Assembly (NCBI RefSeq): GCF_004363235.1
Contig: NZ_SNYW01000008.1
Coordinates: 1-64,000 of the forward strand
DNA from: Dongia mobilis
GTDB lineage: Bacteria; Pseudomonadota; Alphaproteobacteria; Dongiales; Dongiaceae
Reading direction: 5' to 3'
DNA: 64,000 nucleotides
Shown here: one piece after another, positions 13,759 through 49,180 of the stretch
How positions within the stretch are numbered: position 1 is the stretch's first letter
Layout: each line of letters starts with the position of its first letter
Made by a program: the position numbers and the translations under genes
Notes under the pieces: model-generated
Told to the model about the DNA's origin: nothing
What the model saw: only the letters and a program-made list of their open reading frames with translations
The model's database searches: none

Positions 13759-13849
13759 GGGGATGATTTGGCGGAAATCCGTCATTTCAGGCCGCCGCGG
13801 CGCCTTGACGCCCCTGCTTCCCGCCTGCCATGGTGCCCCCGTCAATACG

Positions 13850-14013
13850 TCTTCAGGGCGGGGTGAAAGTCCCCACCGGCGGTAGGATTTAGGGGCGACC
13901 CTGGATCGAGCCCGCGAGCGCCGGCAGGAACTGATCCTGCCGGGTCAGCAGATCAGGTGCGCTGCGCCAGCGGCAATTCCTGGGCCGACGGTCATAGTCC
14001 GGATGAAAGAAGA
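13850..14013 (+). ncRNA. FMN riboswitch (RFN element)
   Basis: The conserved RFN landmarks appear in order: TCTTCAGGGCGGGGTGAAAG (13850), CCCCACCGGCGGTA, AGCCCGCGAGCG, GATCAGGTG, GCCGACGGTCATAGTCCG and the closing GATGAAAGAAGA. It lies 119 bp upstream of ribB on the same strand. FMN binding is expected to reduce ribB expression. Confidence 0.95.
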
Positions 14014-14029
14014 CGAGATCGTGACGGCC

Positions 14030-14831: not shown

Positions 14832-14921
14832 TGTCATCCCCCGCGAAGGCGGGGGGTTCCACGAGTTGTTTTTTCACGTGCTGACAAAATCGTGGATGGC
14901 CCGCCTGCGCGGACCATGACA
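14832..14921. repeat. REPIN-like palindromic repeat, copy A
   Basis: Two GC-rich palindromes face each other: TGTCAT-CCCCCGC...GCGGGGG at the left and GGATGGCCCGC...GGACCATGACA at the right. Inner CCACGAG and CGTGGAT motifs are separated by a spacer of about 30 bp. It is the same family as copies at 44487 and flanking the GIY-YIG gene at 48788. It sits between ribB and the quinone reductase gene. Confidence 0.75.
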
Positions 14922-16693: not shown

Positions 16694-16770
16694 TCATCCC
16701 CGGGCGAAGTCCCGAGGATCCAGTGTCGCGGCCGCTGAACTGGATGCCCAGGACAAGCCCGGGCATGACG
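16694..16770. repeat. REPIN-like palindromic repeat, second sequence type
   Basis: A left arm TCATCCCCGGGCGAAGTCCC and a right arm AAGCCCGGGCATGACG face each other around inner ATCCAGT and ACTGGAT motifs. The overall architecture is that of copies A-D, but the inner motif differs. It lies in the 151-bp convergent gap between the glycolipid-binding gene and the large kinase gene. Confidence 0.65.
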
Positions 16771-44486: not shown

Positions 44487-44574
44487 TGTCATGCCCCGGC
44501 TTGGCCGGGGCATCCACGAGTTTGATCTGTTGCCTGCCAACTCGTGGATGGCCCGCCTGAAGCGGGCCATGACA
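44487..44574. repeat. REPIN-like palindromic repeat, copy B
   Basis: It has TGTCATGCCCCGGCTTGGCC at the left and GGCCCGCCTGAAGCGGGCC followed by ATGACA at the right, with inner CCACGAG and ACTCGTGG motifs. It lies between the DUF3576 gene and leuS. Confidence 0.85.
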
Positions 44575-48667: not shown

Positions 48668-48727
48668 TGGAATAGCGGCGATGGGTGGTTGGGCCGGAGC
48701 ACCCACGCGTTCCTTCAATCACTCACG

Positions 48728-48767
48728 AACAAACTCGTGGATGGCCCGCCTAAAGCGGGCCATGACA
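48728..48767. repeat. REPIN-like repeat, copy C (intact right arm)
   Basis: The arm contains ACTCGTGGATGGCCCGCC, TAAAGCGGGCC and ATGACA. The left half upstream is degraded but still alignable (CCACGCGTTCCTTC). It is identical over 40 bp to the reverse complement of 49090-49129. Confidence 0.9.
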
Positions 48768-48787
48768 GTAATGGGGAATGGCGCACC

Positions 48788-49075
48788 GTGTTCGCCGCTG
48801 TTTACATCATGACCGACGGGCCAAACGGCACGCTCTATGTCGGCGTTACGACCGATCTCGCCAGGCGCGTGAGCCAGCATCGTGCTGGCGAGATTGTCGG
48901 TTTCACGAAGCGGTATGACCTGAAGCAGCTGGTCTATTTTGAACCACACGAAGACATCAACGCGGCAATCCATCGCGAGAAGCGATTGAAGAAATGGCCG
49001 CGTGCCTGGAAGGTCCGACTGATAACACGCGAAAACCCGGAATGGCGGGACCTCTACCACGACCTGTTTCGCTGA
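48788..49075 (+). CDS. GIY-YIG domain endonuclease (COG2827-like)
   Basis: The 95-residue protein is a single GIY-YIG domain: FAAVYIMTDGPNGTLYVGVTTDLARRVSQH has the paired aromatic and arginine residues, and IHREKRLKKW has the catalytic glutamate. NPEWRDLYHDLF is the family end. I choose the GTG at 48788, which starts where homologues do (compare MxxVYI). An in-frame ATG at 48689 would translate the flanking repeat (NKLVDGPPKAGHD), a known misannotation pattern. The gene is tightly bracketed by inverted REPIN-like repeats. Confidence 0.85.
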   Translation: MFAAVYIMTDGPNGTLYVGVTTDLARRVSQHRAGEIVGFTKRYDLKQLVYFEPHEDINAAIHREKRLKKWPRAWKVRLITRENPEWRDLYHDLFR

Positions 49076-49089
49076 CGGCATTTCCCAAT

Positions 49090-49180
49090 TGTCATGGCCC
49101 GCTTTAGGCGGGCCATCCACGAGTTTGTTGGTCACTGAAGAAGGCAACTCGTGGATCCCCCGCCTGCGCGGGGGATGACA
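49090..49180. repeat. REPIN-like repeat, copy D (complete)
   Basis: The left arm begins TGTCATGGCCCGC; the right arm ends CGCGGGGGATGACA; inner CCACGAG and ACTCGTGG motifs flank a spacer of about 25 bp. It begins 14 bp after the nuclease stop. Confidence 0.9.

Follow-up and report, generated by a model that had tools for sequence, protein, structure and literature searches.

We found that a short GIY-YIG nuclease gene of Dongia mobilis lies between matching palindromic repeats, and we think, with a probability of roughly 0.7, that it encodes a repeat-paired nuclease, carried beside CGTC-class REP palindromes that the enzyme most likely recognises. The gene is located in a 64,000-nucleotide stretch of contig NZ_SNYW01000008.1, which we refer to as the window. 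A compact partnership of repeats and nuclease had been proposed in an original prediction made from this stretch, and several lines of evidence strongly support it. Gene and repeats are associated in a gene-specific manner, with matched flanks around individual genes. The repeats take the form of REPIN dimers that are dispersed genome-wide, their density is higher in genomes that encode the nuclease, and a Y1 transposase was not found in the D. mobilis genome. Finally, a REPIN-gene-REPIN unit is inserted relative to empty sites in relatives, and one copy elsewhere has been reduced by internal deletion to a remnant of the gene between two REPs.

The gene encodes a protein of 95 amino acids (coding positions 48788-49072, with the stop codon ending at 49075) and has yggS on one side and typA on the other. 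Its GTG start is backed by a homologue alignment, its GIY-YIG domain was confirmed by a match to PF01541, and residues Y6, Y17, G19, R27, H31, E64 and N83 are conserved across two homologue alignments. AlphaFold models the protein with high confidence (pLDDT 96). The best PDB match of this model is the UPF0213 protein 1zg2, and the nearest predicted folds are those of UPF0213 proteins and of the catalytic part of Slx1, a branched-DNA nuclease, which suggests that the protein shares the small GIY-YIG fold of UPF0213/COG2827 and Slx1 (PDB 1zg2, 1ywl, 7cq3). Slx1 differs from the stand-alone protein of the window in that it requires Slx4 and has branched duplexes as its substrate. To our knowledge, UPF0213 proteins have no assigned function. 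We dropped a phage or defence reading of the gene because phage records and PADLOC gave no match and the PHROGs matches were weak.

A homologue in N. gonorrhoeae is 52% identical to the window's protein over 94 residues, without gaps, and has palindromes of the CGTC-1/dRS3 type on both sides. We take this homologue to be Ssn, which is reportedly a site-specific nuclease of single-stranded DNA with its own high-copy repeat, the NTS (Chenal et al., Nat Commun 2025); cutting of its single-stranded cognate repeats is said to have been published, and the protein reportedly modulates natural transformation. The two systems have in common a short, stand-alone GIY-YIG protein (about 94 residues in Neisseria), dRS3-type palindromes at its flanks, and a cognate repeat that is found beside the gene and many times over in the genome. 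They differ in that the repeats of the window form REPIN dimers, in which the CACGAGTT tail is conserved and the two stems are unlike. Because the Neisseria homologue is 52% identical and has dRS3-type flanks, and given the reported nature of Ssn, the gene-repeat pair of the window most likely belongs, by analogy, to the Ssn kind, and cleavage of single-stranded REPs would most likely be the activity of its enzyme. On the same analogy, the idea of cutting would not be new in kind. As an aside, two N. gonorrhoeae records of about 2.17 Mb that are labelled plasmids (NZ_CP119140.1 and NZ_CP119142.1) are, judged by their size, probably misfiled chromosomes.

We examined the repeats around the gene (Table 1). 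Their inner arms, which are 20 bp (upstream) and 14 bp (downstream) away from the coding sequence, are exact reverse complements of each other at 40 of 40 positions, exactly as predicted, and the longer flanking arms are 84% complementary over 73 nucleotides. The prediction had also described each repeat as two facing palindromes of about 90 bp. This holds for the downstream repeat, which is a complete dimer, and on that side only, because the upstream repeat has a decayed outer half; its inner half is intact, and the decayed half can still be aligned to the downstream copy across the spacer. Solo copies elsewhere in the window were likewise borne out, as one dimer, one degenerate dimer and a single REP at 16741-16770. 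Because the tail of this lone REP (CCAGTTCAG) is different, the genome may contain a second REP family. Relative to dinucleotide shuffles, single-stranded folding gives z = -6.0 for the downstream dimer and z = -8.0 for the solo dimer at 44487. About 800 bp before the degenerate dimer there is an FMN riboswitch (RF00050, 92.5 bits; 13845-14018, plus strand).

Table 1. Nuclease gene and associated repeats in the window.
Feature	Position	Strand	Remarks
GIY-YIG nuclease gene, 95 aa, GTG start, stop included	48788..49075	+	PF01541, E 9.5e-14; conserved residues; AlphaFold
Upstream inner REP with tail	48733..48767	-	head TGTCAT gene-proximal; tail CCACGAGT pointing away
Decayed outer half and spacer of upstream REPIN	48695..48732		inverted-orientation alignment to downstream REPIN
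Perfect 40-bp inverted repeat, upstream arm	48728..48767		
Perfect 40-bp inverted repeat, downstream arm	49090..49129		
Downstream inner REP with tail	49090..49124	+	TGTCAT..ATCCACGAGT
Downstream outer REP	49147..49180	-	stem differs (CCCCCGC); head and tail same
Complete downstream REPIN	49090..49180		tails facing, heads outward; three-arm ssDNA fold predicted
Solo REPIN	44487..44574		stems GCCCCGG and GGCCCGC
Degenerate solo REPIN	14832..14921 (approx.)		

The window's repeats belong to the CGTC class of REPs, with a YGTCAT head, a 9-bp stem and the tail ATCCACGAGTT; the form of the copies is TGTCAT, then stem-loop-stem, then the tail. At least 30 strict copies are present in the genome (4.19 Mb on 14 contigs), compared with none for a backward-read control pattern, and a looser search for CGTC-type candidates gave 88 compared with one for the control. 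CGTC-tagged REPs have been defined by a CGTC or TGTC head, AT at the stem foot, a stem of 8-9 bp and a CCA tail; they are found mostly in Alphaproteobacteria, also occur as dimers, and include CGTC-1 of Neisseria, which was equated with dRS3 (Di Nocera et al. 2013, PMC3733652). The window's repeats share the head, AT foot, stem, CCA tail and dimers with this class, and the listed copies from the D. mobilis genome read TGTC-AT..AT-CCA. The difference concerns the enzyme: the 2013 survey reported the CGTC repeats to be unassociated with transposase genes and named no dedicated enzyme, whereas a flanked GIY-YIG gene is found systematically here. REPs with the CACGAGTT tail are restricted to two genera of the family Dongiaceae and are absent from its five other genera.

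Within the dimers, the tails point inward over a spacer of 13-31 nucleotides and the heads point outward. Inverted dimers of this kind are frequent: the places listed for five related genomes include 40 solo examples. Not one of these 40 pairs two equal stem arms (shuffled mean 6.1), whereas in 39 of them the first two variable stem bases differ (shuffled mean about 26). The REPs on either side of the nuclease gene, by comparison, are identical to each other in eight of nine cases among the same listed places. Folded in silico as single strands, 12 strict dimers from the D. mobilis genome are predicted to form three hairpins (8/12), four (1/12) or one (3/12), and the same dimers, when made homodimeric, are predicted to collapse to essentially one long hairpin. 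The rule of unequal stems may reflect either the instability of long palindromes or a requirement for a three-armed fold. It does not hold everywhere outside the family, as the dimers of A. lipoferum pair similar stems. By eye, the spacer of a REPIN shows a possible similarity to a piece of the GIY-YIG gene.

We next asked how generally such genes are flanked by matching repeats, using 184 homologues from many phyla. They were collected within the same family, across the class Alphaproteobacteria and by a wide scan (the DNA scan had one single relative as its query), and they are not fully independent, as Bradyrhizobium contributes orthologues from one genus and a few loci are represented twice. 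In 102 of 183 genes, the 150-bp flanks are joined by an exact inverted repeat that is no shorter than 12 nucleotides; this was seen in 0.2% of 809 windows that had the same geometry but were shifted, and in 7% when flanks were swapped between genes. CGTC-type hairpins flank 106 of 179 genes on both sides (0.2% of shifted controls) and 143 on at least one side (2.9% of controls), while no REP can be recognised within 200 bp of the remaining 36. Of the 106 double-flanked genes, 80 have the tails directed towards them, and the gene therefore occupies the position of a REPIN spacer. The heads face the gene in 12, including the locus of the window, and the gene then lies between two REPINs. The pairing is specific to the gene: in genomes with multiple nucleases, inverted repeats no shorter than 14 nucleotides span the flanks of one gene in 41% of cases, compared with 7% for flanks of different genes in the same genome. 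After near-identical proteins had been removed, tail agreement across one gene was 0.58, compared with 0.30 when shuffled, and tail similarity tracked protein similarity with an r of 0.26 (permutation maximum 0.13), to which shared ancestry contributes.

The original prediction had also asked whether repeat number follows the presence of the nuclease, and would have been refuted by equal abundance of the repeats in genomes without it. In a sample of 289 alphaproteobacterial genomes, the median density of candidate REPs is 9.3 per Mb in the 82 with a strong nuclease match and 2.6 per Mb in the 193 without (p ~1e-17), and in contrasts drawn within families the genomes with the nuclease have the higher density in 21 of 28 (21:7; p = 0.013). 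The repeats are thus not equally abundant where the nuclease is missing. There are exceptions: uvrC is the sole GIY-YIG gene in 10 of 12 repeat-rich, nuclease-negative genomes that we checked, and the repeats can therefore persist or spread without the nuclease gene. Conversely, 17 of the 82 nuclease-positive genomes have fewer than four candidate REPs per Mb. Three alphaproteobacterial genomes (G290, G281 and G257) combine a very high density of CGTC REPs with uvrC as the only GIY-YIG gene, a pattern that could reflect either nuclease loss or another mobiliser.

Comparison of syntenic loci indicates that the gene can be gained together with its repeats. In A. lipoferum, a REPIN-gene-REPIN unit lies between sufB and sufC, which are adjacent and free of the unit in A. 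ramasamyi, A. oryzae and B510; the empty sites that the original prediction asked about thus exist in Azospirillum. The syntenic 50-kb stretches of these three genomes contain no REP of the kind found in the A. lipoferum unit. For a comparison with classical insertion sequences, which have terminal inverted repeats and a target-site duplication, the insertion is seen against the empty sites, with flanks, also the intergenic ones of an A. lipoferum solo REPIN, that are too diverged to define exact ends. Among relatives of the same genus as D. mobilis, one (G007) has yggS followed by typA and no nuclease gene. Another (G005) carries a different copy, 56% identical, right after yggS, and has REP dimers downstream only. 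Apart from this copy without a repeat directly upstream, the nuclease of close relatives does not occur without repeats. S. meliloti Ak57 has, ahead of an intact REP-gene-REP unit, a copy that is missing about 210 bp of the gene. This deletion copy (L289:1167-1330) consists, in 164 bp, of two REPs with the 3' end of the gene between them, lies directly upstream of the intact one, and looks as a gene-less REPIN would at birth. In Bradyrhizobium, gene and REPs occupy one locus across the genus, which indicates vertical inheritance and not mobility.

Matched flanks, sites without the unit and the deletion copy together make a role of the enzyme in REPIN spreading plausible. In the mechanism we propose, the enzyme would bind the REP hairpin in single-stranded DNA, as exposed on the lagging strand, in DNA arriving by transformation or in an extruded cruciform, and would cut where the conserved tail and the stem foot direct it. 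Repair of these nicks, or recombination at them, would then shape and occasionally spread REPINs, the gene would travel or persist together with its repeats, and dispersed REPINs may in part be gene-less derivatives of REP-gene-REP units. A bolder extension, which we offer tentatively as possible rather than probable, is that the GIY-YIG protein is the enzyme, so far missing, that disperses CGTC REPs. It would define a second class of REPtron that is independent of RAYTs and gives rise to gene-less REPINs by internal deletion, and in which the solo REPINs of the family need two different stems to form a three-armed single-strand substrate. Alphaproteobacteria, Neisseria and Rickettsia commonly carry CGTC REPs, which have hitherto been described without a dedicated enzyme. 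Matching REPs on both sides of the nuclease in about 60% of the cases examined offer a ready-made pair of enzyme and substrate for each species, which makes the origin and persistence of these repeats directly testable, and the family supplies many candidate sequence-specific nucleases of single-stranded DNA.

Alternatively, the nuclease could serve housekeeping or the control of DNA uptake. Here, it would cut single-stranded REPs and thereby restrict or steer DNA that enters the cell, or clear hairpins at replication, as the resident user of repeats that another agent spreads. The persistence of repeats in nuclease-free genomes, the vertically inherited single locus of Bradyrhizobium and the transformation-modulating role that the Neisseria protein is said to have all speak for this reading. 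We nevertheless consider it rather unlikely, as it leaves unexplained why flanks match within a gene and not with the other nuclease genes of the same genome, and why the gene was inserted along with its REPINs.

A passive association, in which short genes are merely tolerated in REP-rich intergenic spots, would fit the mostly intergenic location of REPs in published surveys (PMC3733652) and the nuclease genes that have no flanking REP. This explanation is largely refuted and very improbable, given that just 0.2% of shifted windows around the same genes have REPs on both sides and that stems and tails are matched gene by gene.

The repeat-paired nuclease resembles the REPtrons (PMC3116915, PMC2817692) in that dispersed palindrome dimers accompany a single or low-copy nuclease gene located between the same repeats, and in that inheritance is sometimes vertical. 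It differs in having a GIY-YIG enzyme in place of an HUH/Y1 transposase, with no covalent tyrosine intermediate expected, and in lacking the GTAG tag: in place of GTAG or GTGG at the hairpin foot, the D. mobilis copies that we read have TGTC. PF01797 (Y1/RAYT) has no match in the D. mobilis genome or in 11 of 16 relatives of the family, and because no such gene was found in the genome, a RAYT is not an obvious present mobiliser. It is therefore barely credible that the repeats are REPINs mobilised by a RAYT and that the nuclease has nothing to do with them, despite the REPIN-like dimer architecture and the Y1 transposases of some relatives (5 of 17 genomes), as the repeats are tagged YGTC and no tyrosine transposase with CGTC repeats at its flanks came up in the 2013 survey (PMC3733652).

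Two further observations concern homologues with other kinds of repeat. A homologue on plasmid p1 of Planktothrix agardhii (L291) is situated between an MmeI-type restriction gene and the DISARM gene drmA, with a different palindromic repeat nearby. In two relatives of the same family (L048 and L059), members of a more distant GIY-YIG subfamily are flanked by palindromes of another type, CCTCATCCTGAGCCTGTCGAAGGATGAGG, in inverted copies.
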